A stretch of 64,000 nt of DNA. Origin: Neocallimastix lanati (nom. inval.). Lineage: Eukaryota; Neocallimastigomycota; Neocallimastigomycetes; Neocallimastigales; Neocallimastigaceae. Position 1 is the first letter of the stretch. Every line of letters begins with the position of its first letter. The translations under genes were made by a program, and so were the position numbers. Positions 15,416 to 63,623 of this stretch are shown in pieces. The DNA lies in the NCBI GenBank assembly GCA_016946835.1, contig JACVTC010000038.1:1150001-1214000 (forward strand), given 5' to 3'. The notes beneath the pieces are model-generated. The model did not search any database. It had not been told where the DNA came from and worked only from the letters and a program-made list of their open reading frames with translations.

Positions 15416-15786
15416 GCTATATATATTTTTATATATAAATTTTAATAAAATTATTTACTATTGAATATTCAATATATATATATATATATATAATATTGTT
15501 ATGCTTATATGTTTACATATATTTTATTTTAATATTATATTAATATATATATACTAATAATTTTTAATCATTAATATATATATAATAATTTTATTTTTTT
15601 AGAAAAAAATTTTATTTACTAATTCTATTTTATTAGATATTAGATAATTTACATATATTTTATTTTAATACTATATTAATATAAATATATACTAATAATT
15701 TTTAATCATTAATATATATATAATAATTTTATTTTTTTAGAAAAAAATTTTATTTACTAATTCTATTTTTTTAGATATTAGATAAT

Positions 15787-18016
15787 TTAAAGTCCAGGAG
15801 TTTCAAGACGAATATGATCGTACATAATACCATCAAATTGATAATTATTAGTGTATCCTCCTGTCTTTCGGGCATGTAAAGTAATCTTATTTTCTCCAAT
15901 TTTGAAATCATTCGGTCCAAATTTAAATTCTAATTCACGATAGAATCCTCGAATACCATCACGACGAACACAGGCATCATCTTTAAAGTTGGAAACTTCG
16001 GCTGAATTCTTTCCTCCATTGATAGAGACGGAAAGTGCAGTAGAAGAATTAGCTGCAACTGAAACTCGTAATACTGATGTACCTGTGGGTTTCTTTCTCA
16101 AATTGAAGTAAATATTCCATGGAATTGATTGATATTTGCCATCTCTTCCTGGAACTGAAACATGACAATAATTCCAATCTCTAGCATAATTAGATTTTCC
16201 AATATAGTAATTAACACCATTTGGGAATTCTTTTGGGAATTTGTATGGAAGTCCCCATTGATTGAAATGATCTCCATGTTTGAATTCCTTGGCGGTACGA
16301 TCTGGAATTCCAATTTCCCATGCAATTGGTCCAACTCTCTTTTCTGTGAAAACAATTTCTCCAAGATTCGTAGTTCTACCAGCTGTGACCGTAATGCTTT
16401 TATTCAATATAAATTCACCAACCACTCCTTTAGACCATGCACGTAATTGATATGTACCTGGAATAACATTGCTTATAGAAAAATTTGGACTAACACCTGA
16501 AATACTATGAGTCCAAAAAGAATAATGACGCCATTGCTGATTAGGAATGGATTCTCTATTAGATTCTGGTTGTACCAATGTAACTACAGCATCTTCTAAT
16601 CTGAAAGCGGAATTATTTAATGGATTCTTAATGGTCAATTTACCTGTAACACTTCCACGTTGTTTAACATATCCTGGTTGAGAAACGAATGAATATGGCC
16701 ATTTTGCTTTTTCAACTTTAGCCACTGCTTTAGCATCTCTCCATGAAGCTTGAGGAGAACCTGCCTTATTCAAATAAATTAAATATGGACCATAAACTTT
16801 TGACCAATTTTCACCTCTCTTTGGATATTCATCTCCTGCACCATAATGAGAACCTGCCATATACATAATTTGTAAAGAATCATTTTCACCTTGATGACAA
16901 GCGAGATCACGATTATAAGCACCTCCATTTTTCCATTCCATTGATGGAGTTACAAACCAACAACCTAAACCATTTTTGGTGGCAAAACCATGAACATCAT
17001 GTTTTAATGCATCAATTGACTAATCATATTTGTGGATGACTTCTCCTGTTTTCACTTTACAAGCTTCTTTTGGACCCATCACTTGACAATTCTTTTGTTG
17101 TTCAGCGGTTGGTAAATAACGACCAACATCATCTTCAACTTGTAACCAACTGAATGGATTACTTTTTAATCTTAAAATTAAACGAATTTCACTGAATTGA
17201 GTATCAGGATAATTAGGCTTATGATCAAGTTTTAAAGAAAAATAGACACCCTTTGTATCATTAAGCGTAGTATTTCTAACTTCCCTATATATATATATAT
17301 ATATATATTTAATTATTATTATAATTAGTTATTATTTTTAAAAAATAATTTATAATTTTGATTTATAATTTTAAAAATATCTGTATTTAATATTAATTAG
17401 ATTTAATATATATTTTATAATTTTTTTTTTAAAATAAACTTACCAATCCATATTTAAAACATTATCAGTGAAAGCAATTTCAACATGATCATTTGTATTC
17501 TTAATTATAGTACTTCTTTTTGCATGAACTTTTAATATATTTTAATAAAAAAAATATTAATAAAAATTAATATATTAATGATAAAAATTTTAAATAATTT
17601 TCCATATAAATAAAAAATCGACAAAAAAACAATTTTCTTTTTTATAAAATCAATATTTACAGCCAGCTTTTGAACCATTAGCATCAATATAAGATCTATT
17701 TAAAAATTCTTGATTGTCACCAGCAATCTTTAATGAAGTAATATAACCATCTTTCTTAGAAATAACAACTGTAGCATAGCTATTTATTATAGTTAATAAT
17801 AAAAAATGATATTTATTAATATAATTTTTAAATAGACTTTTTTCTTTATATTTTAAAAAAATATATAATTAAAAAAATTTGTTTCTAATATAATTAGAGT
17901 TAATTATATATTTACTTATTTTTTAAAGTGTATGAATTATTGTTTTGTGTCAAACTGACAGCAGAAACAATAGAAGCTAAGATGGCTACTAATAAACTAA
18001 TAAATATAACTTTCAT
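15787..18016 (-). pseudogene. PL4 rhamnogalacturonan lyase, copy 1, with TAG at codon 190
   Basis: Four exons on the minus strand: 18016-17916, 17779-17661, 17528-17444 and 17284-15787, joined by introns of 136, 132 and 159 bases with GTAAAT or GTAAGT donors and AG acceptors. The joined frame codes for 600 residues with a signal peptide (about 1-19), a lyase domain with an SHYGAG motif near 247-252, a fibronectin-III-like domain (about 306-415) and a C-terminal carbohydrate-binding-like domain (about 418-600). Such PL4 enzymes cleave the rhamnogalacturonan-I backbone of pectin by beta-elimination. Codon 190, TGG in the intact copies, is TAG at 17022-17020. The same stop occurs in copy 2, its inverted partner. 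Apart from this the frame is open. A TATA-like word (18109-18116) sits about 95 bases before the ATG. It is a pseudogene unless the stop is read through. Confidence 0.88.
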
Positions 18017-18310
18017 TTTTTTTTATTAATAATAGTAAATTAATATAATACAAATATTTATATATATTAATATTTATGAATCTTTGAAATCAAAATGAAA
18101 AATGCAGTTATTTATACCTTTTTTTTTAATTATAAAAGCACTTTATATATAAATAATTTTTCATTTTTATTAATAATATAAATTATTACTTTAAAAAATA
18201 AATAAAATTTATATAAAATATAATATATTATAATCTATACTTTACTAGTCATAAATAGGTATTTTATAATAATTAATTTTAATAATTAAAATTTATGAAA
18301 TCTTTTTATG

Positions 18311-18352
18311 ATAGTGTGCGGTGTGTATTAAATATACTTGTTATGTCATATT
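18311..18352 (-). promoter_or_regulatory. Conserved upstream element of PL4 copy 1
   Basis: A G/C-containing island (TGCGGTGTGT, then TATTAAATATAC and TTATGTCATATT) within nearly pure A/T DNA, about 300 bases before the ATG. Versions occur upstream of copies 2, 3 (twice) and 5. A regulatory role is inferred from conservation. Confidence 0.5.
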
Positions 18353-19446
18353 TTGTTTTTATGTCTTTAATATTGTTATAAAATTAATGAAAAGAAATTT
18401 TATTTTTATTTTATTTAATAATATAAATTAATCTTTCTCAATTTTTTTTTTTATTCAATTTCAATTTATTAATATAAAAATAAAATAAGAGAAATTTTAT
18501 TAAAAAAAATAAATAAGATATTTTTATTCGTCATTATTTAAATTTTTTTTTACTGGAAAATATATATATTAAATCAAAAACTTTTAAATTTTATAATTTA
18601 ACAAAAACCATTTATTTACAGGAAAATAATTTTTATTAAATTATTAATATGTATTTAAATATGTCTTACAAATATGATTTAATTAAAATACGAATTATTT
18701 GTTTAAAAATCATATATAACTAAAAATAAACTTGAAAATAAAACTACTTTATATCTTTTTTTTTTAATATTAAAAATAAGATCTTTAAAAATATTTAGTT
18801 TAAATAATTAAATTTAATAAAAAAATAACTTTAAATTTTTTTTTAAAATATATCAAATAAGTTAGTTTTAAATATTAAATTTTAATTATTAAATTTTTTA
18901 AAATTTTTTTATGATTTTACGGTTCATATTAAATTGGAATATTTTTTATTGGTTTATATATTGAAATTATAAAAAAAAAAAAAAAAAAAAAGAAATAATA
19001 ATAAAATTTTACTATGAAATAAATAAATAATTAATATTTATTTAGTATTTAATTATTTGTATATTTATTTTTCAAGTTTATTTTTAGTTATATATATGAT
19101 TTTGAAACAAATAATTCTTATTTTAATTAAATCATATTTGTAAGACTTATTTTAATATAAATTAATAATTTAATAAAAATTATTTTCCTGTAAATAAATG
19201 GTTTTTGTTAAATTATAAAATTTGAAAGTTTTTGATTTAATATATATATTTTCCGGTAAAAAAAATTTTAAATAATGACGAATAAAAATATCTTATTTAT
19301 TTTTTTTAATAAAATTTCTCTTATTTTATTTTTATATTAATAAATTGAATAAAAAAAAAAATTGAGAAAGATTTATATTATTAAATAAAATAAAAATAAA
19401 ATTCCTTTTCATTAATTTTATAAAAATATTAAAGACATAAAAACAA

Positions 19447-19489
19447 AATATGACATAACATGTATATTTATTACACACCGCACACTATC
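19447..19489 (+). promoter_or_regulatory. Conserved upstream element of PL4 copy 2
   Basis: Read on the minus strand this gives TGCGGTGTGTAATAAATATA followed by CATGTTATGTCATATT. It lies about 350 bases before the ATG, in the same relative orientation as for copies 1, 3 and 5. Confidence 0.5.
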
Positions 19490-19840
19490 GCAAAAAGATT
19501 TCATAAATTTTAATTATTAAAATTAATTATTATAAAATATCTATTTATGACTAGTTAAGTATAGATTATAATATATAAAAAAAAATAAATAAAATTTAAT
19601 TAAATAAAATATAATTAAATTTTATTTATTTTTTAAAGTAATAACTTATATTATTAATAAAAATAAAAAAATATATATATATGTATATATATTTATAAAA
19701 AAAAGTAAGTTCAATAATAATTAAAAAAAAAAAAAAAAGTATAAATTACTGCATTTTTCATTTTGATTTCAAAGATTCATAAATATTAATATATATAAAT
19801 ATTTGTATTATATTAATTTACTATTATTAATAAAAAAAAA

Positions 19841-22069
19841 ATGAAAGTTTTATTTATTAGTTTATTAGTAACTATCTTAGCTTCTATTGTTTCTGCTGTC
19901 AGTTTGACGCAAAACAATAATTCATACACTTTAAAAAATAAGTAAATATATAATTAACTCTAATTATATTAGAAACAAATTTTTTTAATTATATATTTTT
20001 TTAAAATATAAAGAAAAAAGTCTATTTAAAAATTATATTAATAAATATCATTTTTTATTATTAACTATAATAAATAGCTATGCTACAGTTGTTATTTCTA
20101 AGAAAGATGGTTATATTACTTCATTAAAGATTGCTGGTGACAATCAAGAATTTTTAAATAGATCTTATATTGATGCTAATGGTTCAAAAGCTGGCTGTAA
20201 ATATTGATTTTATAGAAAAGAAAATTGTTTTTTTGTCGATTTTTTATTTATATGGAAAATTATTTAAAGTTTTTATCATTAATATATTAATTTTTATTAA
20301 TATTTTTTTTATTAAAATATATTAAAAGTTCATGCAAAAAGAAGTACAATAATTAAGAATACAAATGATCATGTTGAAATTGCTTTCACTGATAATGTAT
20401 TAAATATGGATTGGTAAGTTTATTTTAAAAAAAAATTATATAATATATATAAAGTCTAATTAATATTATATACAGATGTTTTTAAAATTATAAATCAAAA
20501 TTATAAATTATTTTTTAAAAATAATAATTAATTATAATAATAATTAAATATATATATATATATATATATAGGGAAGTTAGATATACTATGCTTAATGATA
20601 CAAAGGGTGTCTATTTTTCTTTAAAACTTGATCATAAGCCTAATTATCCTGATACTCAATTCAGTGAAATTCGTTTAATTTTAAGATTAAAAAGTAATCC
20701 ATTCAGTTGGTTACAAGTTGAAGATGATGTTGGTCGTTATTTACCAACCGCTGAACAACAAAAGAATTGTCAAGTGATGGGTCCAAAAGAAGCTTGTAAA
20801 GTGAAAACAGGAGAAGTCATCCACAAATATGATTAGTCCATTGATGCATTAAAACATGATGTTCATGGTTTTGCCACCAAAAATGGTTTAGGTTGTTGGT
20901 TTGTAACTCCATCAATGGAATGGAAAAATGGAGGTGCTTATAATCGTGATCTTGCTTGTCATCAAGGTGAAAATGATTCTTTACAAATTATGTATATGGC
21001 AGGTTCTCATTATGGTGCAGGAGATGAATATCCAAAGAGAGGTGAAAATTGGTCCAAAGTTTATGGTCCATATTTAATTTATTTGAATAAGGCAGGTTCT
21101 CCTCAAGCTTCATGGAGAGATGCTAAAGCAGTAGCTAAAGTTGAAAAAGCAAAATGGCCATATTCATTCGTTTCTCAACCAGGATATGTTAAACAACGTG
21201 GAAGTGTTACAGGTAAATTGACCATTAAGAATCCATTAAATAATTCCGCTTTCAGATTAGAAGATGCTGTGGTAACATTAGTTCAACCAGAATCTAACAG
21301 AGAATCCATTCCTAATCAGCAATGGCGTCATTATTCTTTCTGGACTCATAGTATTTCAGGTGTTAGTCCAAATTTCTCTATTAACAATGTTATTCCAGGT
21401 ACATATCAATTACGTGCATGGTCTAAAGGAGTGGTTGGTGAATTTATATTGAATAAAAGCATTACGGTCACAGCTGGTAGAACTACGAATCTTGGAGAAA
21501 TTGTTTTCACAGAAAAGAGAGTTGGACCAATTGCATGGGAAATTGGAATTCCAGATCGTACCGCCAAGGAATTCAAACATGGAGATCATTTCAATCAATG
21601 GGGACTTCCATATAAATTCCCAAAAGAATTCCCAAATGGTGTTAATTACTATATTGGAAAATCTAATTATTCCAGAGATTGGAATTATTGTCATGTTTCG
21701 GTTCCAGGAAGAGATGGCAAATATCAATCAATTCCATGGAATATTTACTTCAATTTGAGAAAGAAACCCACAGGTACATCAGTATTACGAGTTTCAGTTG
21801 CAGCTAATTCTTCTACTGCACTTTCCGTTTCTATCAATGGAGGAAAGAATTCAACCGAAGTTGCCAACTTTAAAGATGATGCCTGTGTTCGTCGTGATGG
21901 TATTCGAGGATTCTATCGTGAATTAGAATTTAAATTTGGACCGAATGATTTCAAAGTTGGAGAAAATAAGATTACATTACATGCCCGAAAGACAGGAGGA
22001 TATACTAATAATTATCAATTTGATGGTATTATGTATGATCATATTCGTCTTGAAACTCCTGGACTTTAA
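19841..22069 (+). pseudogene. PL4 rhamnogalacturonan lyase, copy 2, with TAG at codon 190
   Basis: Exons 19841-19941, 20078-20196, 20329-20413 and 20572-22069 (101, 119, 85 and 1498 bases). The joined frame has the PL4 domain order given for copy 1, 600 residues long. Codon 190 is TAG at 20834-20836, as in copy 1; the next codon differs (TCC here, TCA there), so the two copies have since diverged. The signal peptide, intron 1, upstream DNA, the KPN near residue 125 and KSIT near 397-400 match copy 1. The 3' part (STEVAN near 528-533, KVG near 563-565) and the downstream flank match the right-hand type of copy 6. The gene is thus a mosaic with a switch between about residues 400 and 530. A TATA-like word lies at 19740-19747, about 100 bases before the ATG. 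Copy 6 shows the intact form. Confidence 0.88.
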
Positions 22070-22299
22070 ATTATCAAATCTTTTTTAATCGTTGAACTAA
22101 ATAAATGTGAAAAATTCTTTTTATAAATTTATTTTTTTTTAAAGAATTTTCATTATAATTTGTATATATTTTTTGATAATTCAAAGTATATATAAAAGTA
22201 AATGTACTTTTTAAAACAAATATTAGTGTATAAAAGCTATTCGAATTAAATGTAAAAATTAAAAAAAAAAATATTATAAATATATATTAAAAAAATTAT

Positions 22300-24195: not shown

Positions 24196-24245
24196 TAAAC
24201 CATAGTTAATGAATTACTTTTAAACCATAGTTAATGAATTACTTT
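24196..24245 (-). repeat. 25-base tandem duplication over the SD2 stop codon
   Basis: 24196-24220 and 24221-24245 are identical 25-base units that contain the last seven codons and the TAA. The reading frame ends in the upstream unit, so the second unit is now untranslated. SD3 and SD4 have one unit. Confidence 0.9.
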
Positions 24246-24951
24246 CAACTTCGGAACGCTTAGATCTCTTAACCCAGAGGAAAACACCAGCTGAGGAAAG
24301 AGCAGCAGCTCCGGCAATACCGGCGGCAATACCAGCATTAGAACTGTCTTCTTCTTCAGCAGCGGATTGTTCAGCGGCATCACCATCTTCACCATCTTCA
24401 CCATTAACATCATTGGCATCAACTCCTTCGGCATTATCACCTTCAGCTGGTTGTTCATTATCTCCATAATCATCAGAACCTTCACCAGCTGCTTCACCAT
24501 CGGCAACACCAGCATTATCAGCAGCATTAATACCATTGTCATCTCCATAATCATCAGAACCTTCACCAGCATTAGCAATATCATCTGATGGGTTAGCACT
24601 GTCAGTTAATGGAGTGTCATCAGCTGTTGTAGAATCAGCTGGGGTATCAATGGCATCAGCATTATCTGGAGTATCAATGGCATTAGCATTATCTGGAGTA
24701 TTATCAGATGATGCAACATCACCACTATCTGGAGTTTCTTCATTACCAGCTGGAGTATCAGCATCAATATAAATTTCAGTTCCTAATGGGTTAGATGGAT
24801 TAGATGGGTTATCGATACCTTCTGGTTCAGAGCTGACACCAGCATCAGTAGATCCTGGAGCAACAGCATCTTCATCTTCGGAAACATCTAAAGAGTTAGC
24901 GTAAGCGAAGGCAGCGGTAGCAGCGAATAATAAAATAGATTGGAATTTCAT
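24220..24951 (-). CDS. Acidic type I membrane protein of unknown function (SD2)
   Basis: A 243-residue protein with a signal peptide (MKFQSILLFAATAAFAYA, 1-18), an acidic low-complexity body rich in Asp, Ala, Asn, Glu and Pro, two EGSDDYGD motifs, a hydrophobic segment near the end (GIAAGIAGAAALSSAGVFLW) and a basic tail KRSKRSE. The features predict a secreted acidic domain anchored by a C-terminal membrane helix with a short inner tail. SD3 and SD4 differ from it at only a handful of residues (here LGTEIYID, PDSGD and SNSLTMV). The ATG context TTCGAAAATG and ~600 bases upstream are shared with the other copies. No family name is known to me; a wall or surface role is inference. Confidence 0.87.
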   Translation of the reverse strand: MKFQSILLFAATAAFAYANSLDVSEDEDAVAPGSTDAGVSSEPEGIDNPSNPSNPLGTEIYIDADTPAGNEETPDSGDVASSDNTPDNANAIDTPDNADAIDTPADSTTADDTPLTDSANPSDDIANAGEGSDDYGDDNGINAADNAGVADGEAAGEGSDDYGDNEQPAEGDNAEGVDANDVNGEDGEDGDAAEQSAAEEEDSSNAGIAAGIAGAAALSSAGVFLWVKRSKRSEVESNSLTMV

Positions 24952-27742: not shown

Positions 27743-29259
27743 TTAAAGTCCAGGAGTTTCAAGACGAATATGATCATACATAATACCATCAAATTGACAA
27801 TTATTGGTATATCCTCCTGTCTTTCGGGCATGTAAAGTAATCTTATTTTCTCCAATTTTGAAATCATTCGGTCCAAATTTAAATTCTAATTCACGATAGA
27901 ATCCTCGAATACCATCACGACGAACACAGGCATCATCTTTAAAGTTGGAAACTTCGGCTGAATTCTTTCCTCCATTGATAGAGACTGAAAGTGCAGTAGA
28001 AGAATTAGCTGCAACTGAAACTCGTAATACTGATGTACCGGTGGGCTTCTTTCTCAAATTGAAGTAAATATTCCATGGAATTGATTGATATTTACCTCCT
28101 CTTCCTGGAACTGAAACATGACAATAATTCCAATCTCTGGAATAATTAGATTTTCCAATATAGTAATTGACTCCATTTGGAAATTCTTTTGGGAATTTGT
28201 ATGGAAGTCCCCATTGATTGAAATGATCTCCATGTTTGAATTCTTTAGCGGTACGATCTGGAATTCCAATTTCCCATGCAATTGGTCCAACTCTCTTTTC
28301 TGTGAAAACAATTTCTCCAAGATTCGTAGTTCTACCGGCTGTGACCGTAATGGTTTTGTTTAAAATAAATTCACCAACCACTCCTTTAGACCATGCACGT
28401 AATTGATACGTACCTGGAATAACATTGTTAATAGAGAAATTTGGACTAACACCTGAAATACTATGAGTCCAGAAAGAATAATGACGCCATTGTTGATTAG
28501 GAATAGATTCTCTGTTAGATTCTGGTTGAACTAATGTTACCACAGCATCTTCTAATCTGAAAGCGGAATTATTTAATGGATTCTTAATGGTCAATTTACC
28601 TGTAACACTTCCACGTTGTTTCACATATCCTGGTTGAGAAACGAATGAATATGGCCATTTTGCTTTTTCAACTTTAGCTACTGCTTTAACATCTCTCCAT
28701 GAAGCTTGAGGAGAACCTGCCTTATTCAAATAAATTAAATATGGACCATAAACTTTGGACCAATTTTCACCTCTCTTTGGATATTCATCTCCTGCACCAT
28801 AATGAGAACCTGCCATATACATAATTTGTAAAGAATCATCTTCACCTTGATGACAAGCAAGATCACGATTATAAGCACCACCATTTTTCCATTCCATTGA
28901 TGGAGTCACAAACCAACAACCTAAACCATTTTTAGTAGCAAAACCATGAACATCATGTTTTAATGCATCAATGGACCAATCATATTTGTGGATGACTTCT
29001 CCTGTCTTCACTTTACAAGCTTCTTTTGGACCCATCACTTGACAATTCTTTTGTTGTTCAGCGGTTGGTAAATAACGACCAACATCATCTTCAACTTGTA
29101 ACCAACTGAATGGATTACTTTTTAATCTTAAAATTAAACGAATTTCACTGAATTGAGTATCAGGATAATTAGCTTTATGATCAAGTTTTAAAGAAAAATA
29201 GACACCTTTTGTATCATTAAGCATAGTATATCTAACTTCCCTATATGTATATATGTATA

Positions 29260-29310
<51 letters not shown>

Positions 29311-30007
29311 AATTATTTTTTTAAAAAAAATATTTATAATTTTAATTTAAAATTTTAAAAATATCATTATTTAATATTAGACTTAATAAATTAATTTTTT
29401 TTATATTTTTTTTAATGTAAACTTACCAATCCATATTTAATACATTATCAGTGAAAGCAATTTCAACATGATCATTTGTATTCTTAATTATAGTACTTCT
29501 TTTTGCATGAACTTTAGATATATTTTAATAAATAAAAAAAATTAATAAAAATTAATATATTAATGATAAAAACTTTAAATAATTATCCATATAAATAAAA
29601 AATCGACGAAAAAACAATTTTCTTTTTTATAAAATCAATATTTACAGCCAGCTTTTGAACCATTAGCATCAATATAAAATCTATTTAAAAATTCTTGATT
29701 GTCACCAGCAATCTTTAATGAAGTAATATAACCATCTTTCTTAGAAATAACAACTGTAGCATAGCTATTTATTATAGTTAATAATAAAAAATGATATTTA
29801 TTAATAAAAATTTTAAATAAGGCTTTTTTCTTCATATTTTTAACAAAATTATATTTTGTTAAAAAAAATTTTTTTTTAATATAATTAGAATTAATTATAT
29901 ATTTACTTATTTTTTAAAGTGTATGAATTATTGTTTTGTGTCAAACTGACAGCAGAAACAATAGAAGATAAGATGGTTACTAATAAACTAATAAATAAAA
30001 TTTTCAT
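27743..30007 (-). CDS. PL4 rhamnogalacturonan lyase, copy 3, intact
   Basis: Exons 30007-29907, 29764-29646, 29511-29427 and 29240-27743, all with GT donors and AG acceptors, give a 600-residue secreted enzyme. Signal peptide MKILFISLLVTILSSIVSA (1-19); lyase domain to about 300 with conserved SHYGAG (247-252; its His is a candidate catalytic residue by comparison with PL4 enzymes) and VYGPYLIYLN; fibronectin-III-like domain from about 306 (GYVKQRGSVTGKLTI); C-terminal carbohydrate-binding-like domain (PIAWEIGIPDRTAKEFKHGD onward). It would cut rhamnogalacturonan I in plant cell walls outside the cell. No dockerin is present, so cellulosome attachment is unlikely. Codon 190 is TGG. Intron 3 holds an ATT microsatellite, as does that of gene 4. 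A TATA-like word (30097-30104) lies about 90 bases before the ATG. Confidence 0.9.
29262..29308. repeat. ATT microsatellite in intron 3 of PL4 copy 3
   Basis: About fifteen ATT units. The facing gene 4 carries a much longer AAT run at the same place; pairs A and C have AT dinucleotides there instead. Confidence 0.9.
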
Positions 30008-31567: not shown

Positions 31568-33997
<2,430 letters not shown>

Positions 33998-43428: not shown

Positions 43429-44160
43429 ATGAAATTCCAATCTATTTTATTATTCGCTGCTACCGCTGCCTTCACTTACGCTAACTCTTTAGATGTTTCC
43501 GAAGATGAAGATGCTGTTGCTCAAGGATCTACTGATGCTGGTGTCAGCTCTGAACCAGAAGGTATCGATAACCCATCTAACCCATCTAACCCATTAGTAA
43601 CTGAAATTGATATTGATGCTGATACTCCAGCTGGTAATGAAGAAACTCCAGATAATGGTGATGTTGCATCATCTGATAATACTCCAGATAATGCTAATGC
43701 TATTGATACTCCAGATAATGCTGATGCCATTGACACCCCAGCTGATTCTACAACAGCTGATGACACTCCATTAACTGACAGTGCTAACCCATCAGATGAT
43801 ATTGCTAATGCTGGTGAAGGTTCTGATGATTATGGAGATGATAATGGTATTAATGCTGCTGATAATGCTGGTGTTGCCGATGGTGAAGCAGCTGGTGAAG
43901 GTTCTGATGATTATGGAGATAATGAACAACCAGCTGAAGGTGATAATGCCGAAGGAGTTGATGCCAATGATGTTAATGGTGAAGATGGTGAAGATGGTGA
44001 TGCCGCTGAACAATCCGCTGCTGAAGAAGAAGACAGTTCTAATGCTGGTATTGCCGCCGGTATTGCCGGAGCTGCTGCTCTTTCCTCAGCTGGTGTTTTC
44101 CTCTGGGTTAAGAGATCAAAGCGTTCCGAAGTTGAAAGTAATCCATTAACTATGGTTTAA
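43429..44160 (+). CDS. Acidic type I membrane protein of unknown function (SD4)
   Basis: A 243-residue protein almost identical to SD2 and SD3: signal peptide MKFQSILLFAATAAFTYA, acidic body with two EGSDDYGD motifs, a hydrophobic segment close to the C-terminus, then KRSKRSEVESNPLTMV. The start codon context TTCGAAAATG is shared by all three short members. It is the inverted partner of SD3. The near-identity of three copies implies recent duplication or gene conversion. Function unknown. Confidence 0.87.
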   Translation: MKFQSILLFAATAAFTYANSLDVSEDEDAVAQGSTDAGVSSEPEGIDNPSNPSNPLVTEIDIDADTPAGNEETPDNGDVASSDNTPDNANAIDTPDNADAIDTPADSTTADDTPLTDSANPSDDIANAGEGSDDYGDDNGINAADNAGVADGEAAGEGSDDYGDNEQPAEGDNAEGVDANDVNGEDGEDGDAAEQSAAEEEDSSNAGIAAGIAGAAALSSAGVFLWVKRSKRSEVESNPLTMV

Positions 44161-56498: not shown

Positions 56499-58703
56499 TT
56501 AAAGTCCAGGAGTTTCAAGACGAATATGATCATACATAATACCATCAAATTGATAATTATTAGTATATCCTCCTGTCTTTCGGGCATGTAAAGTAATCTT
56601 ATTTTCTCCAATCTTGAAATCATTCGGTCCAAATTTAAATTCTAATTCACGATAGAATCCTCGAATACCATCACGACGAACACAAGCATCATCTTTAAAG
56701 TCGGCAACTTCGGCTGAATTCTTTCCTCCATTGATAGAGACAGAAAGTGCAGTAGAAGAATTAGCTGCAACTGAAACTCGTAATACTGATGTACCGGTGG
56801 GCTTCTTTCTCAAATTGAAGTAAATATTCCATGGAATAGATTGATATTTACCATCTCTTCCTGGAACTGAAACATGACAATAATTCCAATCTCTAGCATA
56901 ATTAGATTTTCCAATATAATAATTAACACCATTTGGAAATTCTTTTGGGAATTTGTATGGAAGTCCCCATTGATTGAAATGATCTCCATGTTTGAATTCT
57001 TTAGCGGTACGATCTGGAATTCCAATTTCCCATGCAATTGGTCCAACTCTCTTTTCTGTGAAAACAATTTCTCCAAGATTCGTAGTTCTACCGGCTGTGA
57101 CCGTAATGGTTTTATTCAATATAAATTCACCAACCACTCCTTTAGACCATGCACGTAATTGATATGTACCTGGAATAACATTGCTAATTGAGAAATTTGG
57201 ACTAACACCTGAAATACTATGAGTCCTGAAAGAATAATGACGCCATTGTTGATTAGGAATGGATTCTCTGTTAGATTCTGGTTGAACTAATGTAACTACA
57301 GCATCTTCTAATCTGAATGCAGAACTATTTAATGGATTCTTAATTGTCAATTTACCTGTAACACTTCCACGCTGTTTAACATATCCTGATTGAGAAACGA
57401 ATGAATATGGCCATTTCGCTTTTTCAACTTTAGCTACTGCTTTAGCATCTCTCCATGAAGCTTGAGGAGAACCTGCCTTATTCAAATAAATTAAATATGG
57501 ACCATAAACTTTGGACCAATTTTCACCTCTCTTTGGATATTCATCTCCTGCACCATAATGAGAACCTGCCATATACATAATTTGTAAAGAATCATTTTCA
57601 CCTTGATGACAAGCAAGATCACGATTATAAGCACCACCATTTTTCCATTCCATTGATGGAGTCACAAACCAACAACCTAAACCATTTTTGGTGGCAAAAC
57701 CATGAACATCATGTTTTAATGCATCAATGGACCAATCATATTTGTGGATGACTTCACCTGTCTTCACTTTACAAGCTTCTTTTGGACCCATCACTTGACA
57801 ATTTTTTTGTTGTTCAGCAGTTGGTAAATAACGACCAACATCATCTTCAACTTGTAACCAACTGAATGGATTACTTTTTAATCTTAAATTAAACGAATTT
57901 CACTGAATTGAGTATCAGGATAATTAGCTTTGTGATCAAGTTTCAAAGAAAAATAGACACCTTTTGTATCATTAAGCATAGTATATCTAACTTCCCTATA
58001 AATATATATATGTATTATTATAATTATTATTATAATGGTTATTTTTTTAAAAATGAAAAATTTATAATTTTAATTAATAATTTTAAAAATATCATTTTTT
58101 AATATTAATTAGATTTTATATATTATATAATTTTTTTTAATATAGACTTACCAATCCATATTTAATACATTATCAGTGAAAGCAATTTCAACATGATCAT
58201 TTGTATTCTTAATTATAGTACTTCTTTTTGCATGAACTTTTAATATATTTTAATAAAAAAAATATTAATAAAAATTAATAAATATTAATAAAATTTTTAA
58301 ATAATAATCTATATAAATAAAAGTCAACAAAAAATTTTTTTTTTATAAAATCAATATTTACAGCCAGCTTTTGAACCATTAGCATCAATATAAGATCTAT
58401 TTAAAAATTCTTGATTGTCACCAGCAATCTTTAATGAAGTAATATAACCATCTTTCTTAGAAATAACAACTGTAGCATAGCTATTTAATATAAGTTAATA
58501 ATAATTATTAAAAAAATAATTTTATTAATATTAATTTTAATTCTGTTTTATATAAATATATATACTTTTAATTTATATAAATAAAGTTAAGTATGTATTT
58601 ACTTATTCTTTAAAATATATGAATTATTGTTTTGTGTCAAACTGACAGCAGAAACAATAGAAGCTAAGATGGTTATTAATATACTAATAAATAAAATTTT
58701 CAT
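56499..58703 (-). pseudogene. PL4 rhamnogalacturonan lyase, copy 5, one-base deletion
   Basis: Exons 58703-58603, 58480-58362, 58236-58152 and 57995-56499. The first three have the usual 101, 119 and 85 bases; exon 4 is 1497 instead of 1498. One base is missing in the A-run at 57885-57887 (AAA for AAAA), turning ATT TTA AGA into ATT TAA at about residue 139. The rest of exon 4 is open. It shares the residues SQSGY and AEVAD with its partner copy 6 only. The signal peptide is MKILFISILITILASIVSA, the left-hand type. A TATA-like word (58795-58802) lies about 95 bases before the ATG. A base-calling error in the short homopolymer would make it intact. Confidence 0.82.
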
Positions 58704-61256: not shown

Positions 61257-61389
61257 ATGAAAGTTTTAATTTTTGGTATTTTAATTTCTTTCCTAATTTC
61301 TATTGTTTCTGCTGTCAGTTTGACACAAAACAATAATTCATACACTTTAAAGAATAAGTAAATATTTAATTAACTCTAATCATACTAAA

Positions 61390-61431
<42 letters not shown>

Positions 61432-62091
61432 TTTATATTATATTTTTTAATAGACATAAAAATATTTTTAAAATTAATATTAATAATTTTTTTATTAATA
61501 TATAAAAAATATAATTAATTTTAATATTAATAATAAAATTTTTAATAATTATTATTAAATATATCTATATTAAATAGTTATGCTACAGTTGTTATTTCTA
61601 AGAAAGATGGTTATATTACTTCATTAAAGATTGCTGGTGACAATCAAGAATTTTTAAATAGATCTTATATTGATGCTAATGGTTCAAAAGCTGGCTGTAA
61701 ATATTTATTTTATATAAAATTAACTTCTTTTTTTTTAGATTTTATATTTATAAGGATAATTATTTAAAAAAATTTTAAATATTTATTAATATTTATTAAT
61801 ACTTATTAATAATTAAATTTTTATTAATATTTTTTATTAAAATATATTTAAAGTTCATGCAAAAAGAAGTACTATAATTAAGAATACAAATGATCATGTT
61901 GAAATTGCTTTCACTGATAATGTATTAAATATGGATTGGTAAGTTTATATTAAAAAAAAATATATAAAAAAAAATTATTTAATTAATAAAGTCTAATTAA
62001 TATTAAAAAAATGATATTTTTAAAATTTTAAATTAAAATTGTAAATTATTCATTTTTAAATAAATAACCATTATAATATAAATTTAATAAT

Positions 62092-62127
<36 letters not shown>

Positions 62128-63623
62128 AAGTTAGATATACTATGCTTAATGATACAAAGGGTATCTATTTTTCTTTAAAACTTGATCACAAGTCTAATTA
62201 TCCTGATACTCAATTCAGTGAAATTCGTTTAATTTTAAGATTAAAAAGTAATCCATTTAGTTGGTTACAAGTTGAAGATGATGTTGGTCGTTATTTACCA
62301 ACCGCTGAACAACAAAAGAATTGTCAAGTGATGGGTCCAAAAGAAGCTTGTAAAGTGAAGACAGGTGAAGTCATTCATAAATATGATTGGTCCATTGATG
62401 CATTAAAACATGATGTTCATGGTTTTACCACCAAAAATGGTTTAGGTTGTTGGTTTGTGACTCCATCAATGGAATGGAAAAATGGAGGTGCTTATAATCG
62501 TGATCTTGCTTGTCATCAAGGTGAAAATGATTCTTTACAAATTATGTATATGGCAGGTTCTCATTATGGTGCAGGAGATGAATATCCAAAGAGAGGTGAA
62601 AATTGGTCCAAAGTTTATGGTCCATATTTAATTTATTTGAATAAGGCAGGTTCTCCTCAAGCTTCATGGAGAGATGCTAAAGCAGTAGCTAAAGTTGAAA
62701 AAGCGAAATGGCCATATTCATTCGTTTCTCAATCAGGATATGTGAAACAACGTGGAAGTGTTTCAGGTAAATTAACCATTAGGAATCCATTAAATAATTC
62801 TGCATTCAGATTAGAAGATGCTGTGGTAACATTAGTTCAACCAGAATCTAATAGAGAATCTATTCCTAATCAACAATGGCGTCATTATTCTTTCTGGACT
62901 CATAGTATTTCAGGTATTAGTCCAAATTTCTCTATTAACAATGTTATTCCAGGTACATATCAATTACGTGCATGGTCTAAAGGAGTGGTTGGTGAATTTA
63001 TATTGAATAAAACCATTACGGTCACAGCCGGTAGAACTACGAATCTTGGAGAAACTGTTTTCACAGAAAAGAGAGTTGGACCAATTGCATGGGAAATTGG
63101 AATTCCAGATCGTACCGCTAAAGAATTCAAACATGGAGATCATTTCAATCAATGGGGACTTCCATACAAATTCCCAAAAGAATTTCCAAATGGTGTTAAT
63201 TATTATATTGGAAAATCTAATTATGCTAGAGATTGGAATTATTGTCATGTTTCAGTTCCAGGAAGAGATGGCAAATATCAGTCTATTCCATGGAATATTT
63301 ACTTCAATTTGAGAAAGAAACCCACAGGTACATCAGTATTACGAGTTTCAGTTGCAGCTAATTCTTCTACTGCACTTTCAGTCTCTATCAATGGAGGAAA
63401 GAATACAGCCGAAGTTGCCGACTTTAAAGATGATGCCTGTGTTCGTCGTGATGGTATTCGAGGATTCTATCGTGAATTAGAGTTCAAATTTGGACCGAAT
63501 GATTTCAAAGTTGGAGAAAATAAGATTACTTTACATGCCCGAAAAACAGGAGGATACACTAATAATTATCAATTTGATGGTATCATGTATGATCATATTC
63601 GTCTTGAAACTCCTGGACTTTAA
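61257..63623 (+). CDS. PL4 rhamnogalacturonan lyase, copy 6, intact
   Basis: Exons 61257-61357, 61578-61696, 61854-61938 and 62126-63623 with proper GT and AG sites encode 600 residues. Signal peptide MKVLIFGILISFLISIVSA (right-hand type, as in copy 4). The lyase, fibronectin-III-like and C-terminal carbohydrate-binding-like domains are as in copy 3, with codon 190 TGG and SHYGAG at 247-252. Copy-specific residues include KSN near 125, SGKLTIRNP and GETVFTEK. It shares SQSGY and AEVAD with copy 5 and intron 1 with copy 4. Its upstream DNA (from about 60780) resembles that of copy 4 (from about 31120), not the left-hand type, and lacks the TGCGG element. A TATA-like word (61154-61161) lies about 100 bases before the ATG. 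With copy 3 it is one of two apparently working genes. Confidence 0.92.

Follow-up and report, generated by a model that had tools for sequence, protein, structure and literature searches.

An imperfect palindrome of two rhamnogalacturonan lyase genes with a stop codon common to both arms in the anaerobic gut fungus Neocallimastix lanati

The palindrome and its shared stop codon

The DNA described here, called the window below, is a stretch of 64,000 nucleotides of Neocallimastix lanati (contig JACVTC010000038.1, here C312; C312:1150001-1214000). It holds an imperfect palindrome of 6.3 kb (15777-22079), inside which two genes for PL4 rhamnogalacturonan lyases, enzymes that cut pectin, lie head to head (c1 and c2, pair A). 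A first-pass annotation of the window had claimed such a palindrome with TAG at codon 190 in both arms, and the arm alignments and the codons at 17020-17022 and 20834-20836 bear this out. The features, in window positions and with L and R for the two classes of gene told apart by their 3' flanks, are as follows.

15777..18718, minus strand: left palindrome arm (copy 1 and its upstream DNA)
15787..18016, minus strand: c1, PL4, L type; exons 18016-17916, 17779-17661, 17528-17444 and 17284-15787
17020..17022, complement (minus strand): TAG, codon 190 of c1
18719..19090, no strand: 372 nt of unique sequence at the centre, flanked by the innermost ungapped arm blocks
19091..22079, plus strand: right palindrome arm (copy 2 and its upstream DNA)
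19841..22069, plus strand: c2, PL4, promoter of L type although the 3' flank is R type; exons 19841-19941, 20078-20196, 20329-20413 and 20572-22069
20590..20838, plus strand: 249 bp of c2 around the stop without a difference from c1
20834..20836, plus strand: TAG, codon 190 of c2

The arms match in ungapped inverted blocks at 15777-17433/20423-22079 (98%), 17422-18024/19833-20435 (99%) and 18409-18718/19091-19400 (90%), and a gapped alignment of 15777-18127 with 19729-22079 gives 98.1% over 2352 columns; nearer the palindrome centre the likeness drops to about 85-94%. Near-identical inverted arms thus surround a unique centre, as in palindromes with conversion; such a centre had been expected, although at about 315 bases instead of the 372 measured. 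The arms also share upstream DNA and introns 1 and 2, as annotated: intron 1 (136 bp) is identical in c1 and c2, intron 2 is 98.5% identical, and the upstream DNA can be aligned. Of the 283 ungapped columns that vary among c1-c6, 243 are the same in c1 and c2; none of 2000 shuffles reached their longest run of agreement, 71 columns, so chance is no explanation for the likeness. In the 3' flank of c1, two 109-nt copies that are 98% alike and 138 bp apart (15543-15789) reach the end of the left arm.

The arm gene has four exons and codes for a 600-residue PL4 rhamnogalacturonan lyase with a signal peptide recognized by eye; every intron of c1 begins with GT and ends with AG. On the intact copy c3, Rhamnogal_lyase (17-169), fn3_3 (347-409) and a CBM-like domain (424-595) follow each other in the order of anaerobic-fungal PL4 proteins. 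The c3 protein scores 47.5 bits with PF06045 (cut-off 22.8), 49.5 with PF14686 (24.4) and 111.9 with PF14683 (27), and it matches PF09284 as well (36.1; cut-off 27.2). PL4 catalysis depends on Lys and His residues. Among solved structures (PDB) there was no sequence match to the PL4 protein at E 10.

Codon 190 is TGG in c3, c4, c5 and c6, as had been annotated for the four other copies of the window (of which c4 and c5 have other lesions, however), and also in c8 outside the window and in 6 of 7 further relatives, while the site is deleted in c7. The codon after the stop is TCA in c1 and TCC in c2, a difference already noted in the annotation. A 17-base motif around the stop has two exact matches, one per arm, in the 199 Mb genome (199,045,447 bases in 762 contigs), from which alone all our conclusions are drawn. 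The stretch of c2 that equals c1 around the stop contains two (20806 and 20835) of the four exon-4 states common to c1 and c2 against c3-c8. From its position, TAG190 removes two C-terminal domains, fn3-like and CBM-like, from the product and is an inactivating lesion of the kind expected in a pseudogene; by sequence, c1 and c2 should each yield at most the signal peptide and part of domain I. Splicing around the stop was considered by eye: the candidate intron, which begins at 20796 and ends with the TAG, would have 41 nt and would shift the frame, and was rejected. No allelic contig giving a second reading of the stop was present among the matches listed (40 scored of 2699 candidates), and a further search gave one other match, which was weak.

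Head-to-head units and their history by segment

The window contains three head-to-head pairs, namely A (c1/c2), B (c3/c4) and C (c5/c6). A fourth pair, D (c7/c8), is found 19-28 kb to the left of the window (C312:1122-1131 kb); its flank types show that the whole pair is turned round relative to the others. A fifth is on contig C212, near 451.6-455.0 and 462.4-465.0 kb. The analyses of the cluster use the eight C312 copies c1-c8, of which those outside pair A are the following.

27743..30007, minus strand: c3, PL4, L type; TGG190, gene model without lesion
31568..33997, plus strand: c4, PL4, R type; TGG190, donor of intron 1 lost, in-frame TGA, tandem duplication of 8 nt close to the 3' end
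56499..58703, minus strand: c5, PL4, L type; TGG190, 1-nt deletion at 57889 (the missing base is possibly an assembly error)
61257..63623, plus strand: c6, PL4, R type; TGG190, gene model without lesion
C312:1122064-1124469: c7, PL4, R type, heavily broken
C312:1128568-1131229: c8, PL4, L type, heavily broken

The near 3' flank (+11..+150) separates the L genes (c1, c3, c5, c8) from the R genes (c2, c4, c6, c7) with support of 100/100, and the split persists over +11..+900 (96/94). A clade of c1 and c2 is rejected in the near flank by the approximately unbiased test (p-AU 8.4e-5), and sites favouring the same class lead in all six comparisons of pairs (20, 24, 12, 13, 16 and 20 against 0, 0, 0, 3, 1 and 0 favouring arm partners). 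The C212 genes fall one into each class: the 3' flank of C212a is 73-77% identical to L flanks and 58-62% to R flanks, and that of C212b, its start set by eye, is 75-80% identical to R and 65-69% to L. Thus the two-gene unit predates its duplication and the cluster, and copy 2 did not arise by recent inverted duplication of a dead copy 1.

Exon 4 has the opposite pattern. Arm partners lead in all six comparisons (18, 18, 22, 12, 22 and 23 sites against 3, 4, 1, 5, 5 and 2 for the same class), the data reject an L clade (p-AU 0.00043), and arm partners are joined in the best tree (c7+c8 100/98, c3+c4 58/51, c5+c6 62/55), so that in this exon arms are nearer each other than their counterparts in other units, as conversion in a palindrome predicts. 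Since exon 4 favours arm partners and the flanks favour class, arm-to-arm gene conversion is indicated. From exon 1 to intron 3 the tree groups c1 with c2 (99/99); arm partners lead in all three comparisons involving pair A, and the comparison of B with C favours the same class, 14 to 10. A c7+c8 clade is rejected for the promoter and the near 3' flank (p-AU 1.6e-4 and 2.3e-4), with p 0.051 for the flank out to +900.

In the promoter tree, c2 groups with c1, c3, c5 and c8 at 100/100 despite its R-type 3' flank. The comparisons involving pair A favour arm partners (16, 13 and 23 sites against 1, 3 and 5 for the same class), whereas those without it favour the same class (67, 23 and 43 against 4, 13 and 12). 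Between -500 and -130 the c2 promoter is identical to c1 at 94.4%, to c3 at 80.4%, c5 80.1%, c8 65.6%, c4 54.5% and c6 62.2%; over the last 130 bp the values are 95.1% for c1, 93.7% for c3, 93.8% for c5 and 92.1% for c8. These groupings and site patterns indicate that an L gene most likely supplied the sequence that replaced the promoter of c2; the nearest by identity is c1.

Conversion, timing of the stop and rival explanations

Taken together, the segments lead us to regard the palindrome as probably one of at least five old head-to-head PL4 units, built by conversion between its arms, which later spread the stop. The unit of an L and an R gene is older than the cluster and exists in at least five copies, and in the four C312 units ectopic conversion between inverted arms has kept the coding regions alike; this is shown by the site patterns, with which the trees agree, strongly for one pair only. 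In pair A, conversion most likely from c1 to c2 (we infer both donor and direction) would have replaced the R promoter by the L promoter and in this way created the long palindrome. The Trp190 codon would then have become TAG in one arm, and further recent conversion would have carried it to the other, to judge from the presence of the stop in both arms and the excess of silent changes after it. Ectopic conversion between inverted arms is a known process in a new place, and the evidence makes it a likely mechanism here and the best supported one.

The changes between c1 and c2 bear on the timing of the stop. After the stop there are 24, of which 5 alter an amino acid (N) and 19 are silent (S). 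Under neutrality 73-79% of them should alter an amino acid, and with all four mutation spectra tried the shortfall has P 2e-7 or less; before the stop there are 4 of each. The two genes differ by 7.1% at silent sites and by 3.7% in upstream and intron DNA (32/868 aligned sites), and neither has a frameshift. Pair D, in contrast, has 33N:30S after the codon-190 site. Constraint as it can be read from 5N:19S was thus not lost since the lesion, which makes c1 and c2 at most young pseudogenes, and most likely that is what they are. The low N:S ratio and the lack of frameshifts mean that the two arms most likely came to share the stop at a late date, as genes that had remained under selection; as far as the sequence tells, c1 and c2 most likely diverged as working genes. 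States private to c1 or c2 in the cluster give 1N:6S, a test weaker than its P value, because four silent states private to c1 and the one amino-acid state private to c2 recur in distant relatives.

Several observations weigh against this history. Of the 26 exon-4 differences between c1 and c2, 17 affect positions at which other copies vary as well, and the low N:S ratio may in part reflect older variation left or brought in by conversion; patchy conversion with old variation would still make the sharing of the stop recent. Within exon 4 the agreement of c1 and c2 is not clustered (its longest run was reached by 839 of 2000 shuffles), tree support for c1+c2 is just 76/65, and a difference-free stretch as long as the 249 bp around the stop has P about 0.054; a separate late conversion tract at this place would therefore be a tentative reading. 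The best tree of the promoter does not make c1 the sister of c2, though a clade of the two is not rejected (p-AU 0.41). Nor is a tree with c2, c4, c6 and c7 together (p-AU 0.29), so that the case for an L-type promoter in c2 is made by the 100/100 branch and by identity. Finally, exchange extends beyond arm partners: the c1-c3 run in exon 4 was reached by 3 of 2000 shuffles, and the whole-gene runs of c2-c6 (15/2000) and c4-c6 (19/2000) match that of the partners c5-c6 (13/2000).

The annotation had left two options for the stop, and spread by conversion is the one now supported. The other holds that a single gene first acquired the stop and that the palindrome formed when this dead gene was duplicated as an inverted copy. 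It would account for the identity of intron 1 and for the 98% likeness of the arms, which starts near the promoter and runs 10 bp beyond the stop codon that ends the gene. It conflicts with the R-type 3' flank that c2 has in common with c4, c6, c7 and C212b, where c1+c2 is rejected, and with the 5N:19S after the stop, and we consider it very improbable. A stop older than the copying of the arm, with copy 2 a fresh dead copy, is accordingly not supported, in view of the 100/100 split of the 3' flanks, the 5N:19S and the lack of a frameshift. The annotation's picture of a dead gene copied onto its partner holds at most narrowly, for conversion carrying the stop between the arms, not for the copying of a whole dead gene. 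The same purifying pattern, with neither arm frameshifted, would also suit an old but tolerated stop, if TAG were read through and the rest of the protein stayed under selection; TAG ends only 1 of 16 open reading frames (ORFs) checked, of 24 listed in the window, which would allow this. Yet codon 190 is TGG in 5 of the 8 C312 copies and in 6 of 7 further relatives, the codons following the stop, TCA and TCC, are not the readthrough-prone context CUA, and frame-broken copies are frequent in the PL4 family, so loss is tolerated; readthrough is thus equally hard to credit.

Near-identical inverted repeats are hard to polish, and an error of assembly or polishing could have copied the sequence of one arm, or one wrong base, into the other. 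However, exon 4 has 26 differences between the arms, most of which are silent and one of which lies 4 bp from the middle base of the stop; the arms also differ at the 32 of 868 upstream and intron sites, and their 3' flanks are different, each matching other units. The annotation's argument that the arms are not a simple assembly mirror is strengthened by these patterned differences, and such an error has little probability. An independent origin of TAG in both arms needs a single G to A change in each, and the other three exon-4 states common to c1 and c2 against c3-c8 recur in more distant relatives; but one of these states lies just 29 bp from the stop, and with the long run of agreement between the two genes a double origin is the least probable account, verging on the implausible.

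Conversion between arms may also have consequences for the fate of the genes. On C312, 6 of 8 copies are broken, and only c3 and c6 have gene models without a lesion. In pair D, c7 and c8 share six identical exon insertions absent from c1-c6, at 20654, 20688, 20772 (7 nt), 21124, 21150 and 21718 in c2 coordinates; the one at 21150 sits in an A run, where c8 has four more bases, and an exact search of the genome finds the 7-nt insertion twice, once in each arm of the pair. Both also have insertions at 20672 and 21033, with different bases, and each has private ones. It is conceivable, although we hold it to be somewhat doubtful, that head-to-head pairs are coupled units with conversion mostly confined to their own arms, in which a lesion in one arm tends to fix in both and the pair dies together. 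If so, the stop of pair A and the insertions of pair D would represent two stages in the death of a pair, even with intact copies present in the cluster. Against such coupling stand the exchange between non-partners (c1-c3, c2-c6, c4-c6) and the lesions of c4 and c5, which are absent from their partners c3 and c6.

As a separate observation, the decay of some copies consists nearly of insertions only: relative to exon 4 of the intact c3, c7 has 15 insertions and no deletion (plus a loss of 113 bases), c8 has 15 and 1, and the relative L042 (C212:461500-466000) has 55 and 0 over 876 aligned bases. These insertions include A/T runs and tandem micro-duplications. Fifteen other relatives combined have 28 insertions and 37 deletions.

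Window context and known systems

The window is AT-rich (15-28% G+C in 4 kb steps), and its genes code for PL4 and GH10-CBM1 enzymes; one ORF has domains of a reverse transcriptase and an endonuclease. A second palindrome (39089-40254/43083-44239) has arms 97.3% alike over 1167 bp with an ORF of 243 amino acids, the copies of which at 24220-24951 and 43429-44160 have no Pfam match; a pair resembling it lies head to head on contig C99 (11440-12078 and 14100-14738). Another ORF (1041-2957, 638 amino acids) contains many internal direct repeats, 63-73% alike at the DNA level, and has no Pfam match; part of it resembles the 243-amino-acid protein (42%). Elsewhere in the genome, the PL4 relative L009 (C11:446735-447502), 91% identical to residues 1-256 of a 384-residue query, lies inside an open frame of 2053 amino acids and is possibly a fusion. 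The same PL4 fragments occur with equal scores on both contigs of the pairs C390/C586 and C390/C526, so that these contigs may be duplicates or alleles of each other.

Many dockerins are a mark of anaerobic gut fungi (Neocallimastigomycota). The fungal dockerin PF02013 (CBM_10) was found in all 150 scored candidates of this genome (the 150 best of 1440 from a first look) and in none of 14 control genomes, as expected of such a fungus. A tally of genes for plant-cell-wall enzymes in such a genome will include broken ones, as with 6 of the 8 PL4 copies on C312.

According to the part of PMC6712302 available, anaerobic fungi have a Rhamnogal_lyase-type domain in common with plants and bacteria, unlike other fungi. 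The PL4 proteins described there, also from an anaerobic gut fungus, have a Rhamnogal_lyase domain followed by fn3_3 and CBM-like domains, as here; that part treats the domain and its origin, not inverted pairs or conversion. By titles and abstract openings, nothing close was found in the literature on gene conversion in Neocallimastigomycota or on fungal head-to-head pairs.

The arms of sex-chromosome palindromes are far longer than the 3 kb of the present ones. As outlined in the excerpts of PMC3403216 and PMC8981503, they are likewise inverted around a unique centre and kept alike by conversion, with above 99% identity in PMC8981503 against about 98% here. Unlike in those systems, no sex chromosome is known for the present locus, and the lesion is shared, not removed, although arm-to-arm conversion is often discussed in palindromes as a guard against decay (PMC3403216, in the section seen). 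Several units in one genome provide an internal control, flank class against gene body, showing lesions shared and not repaired.

The hsp16 module of C. elegans, as summarized in the portion of PMC3966223 at hand, also has two genes head to head in a duplicated module, with conversion favoured as the source of their likeness; the present fungus differs from it in having at least five units and disabling lesions common to the arms. The same portion describes how the C. elegans paralogues fog-2 and ftr-1 underwent a short conversion at a Trp/stop codon, as proposed here, but there conversion replaced a stop by Trp, whereas at the present locus the stop is found in both copies.

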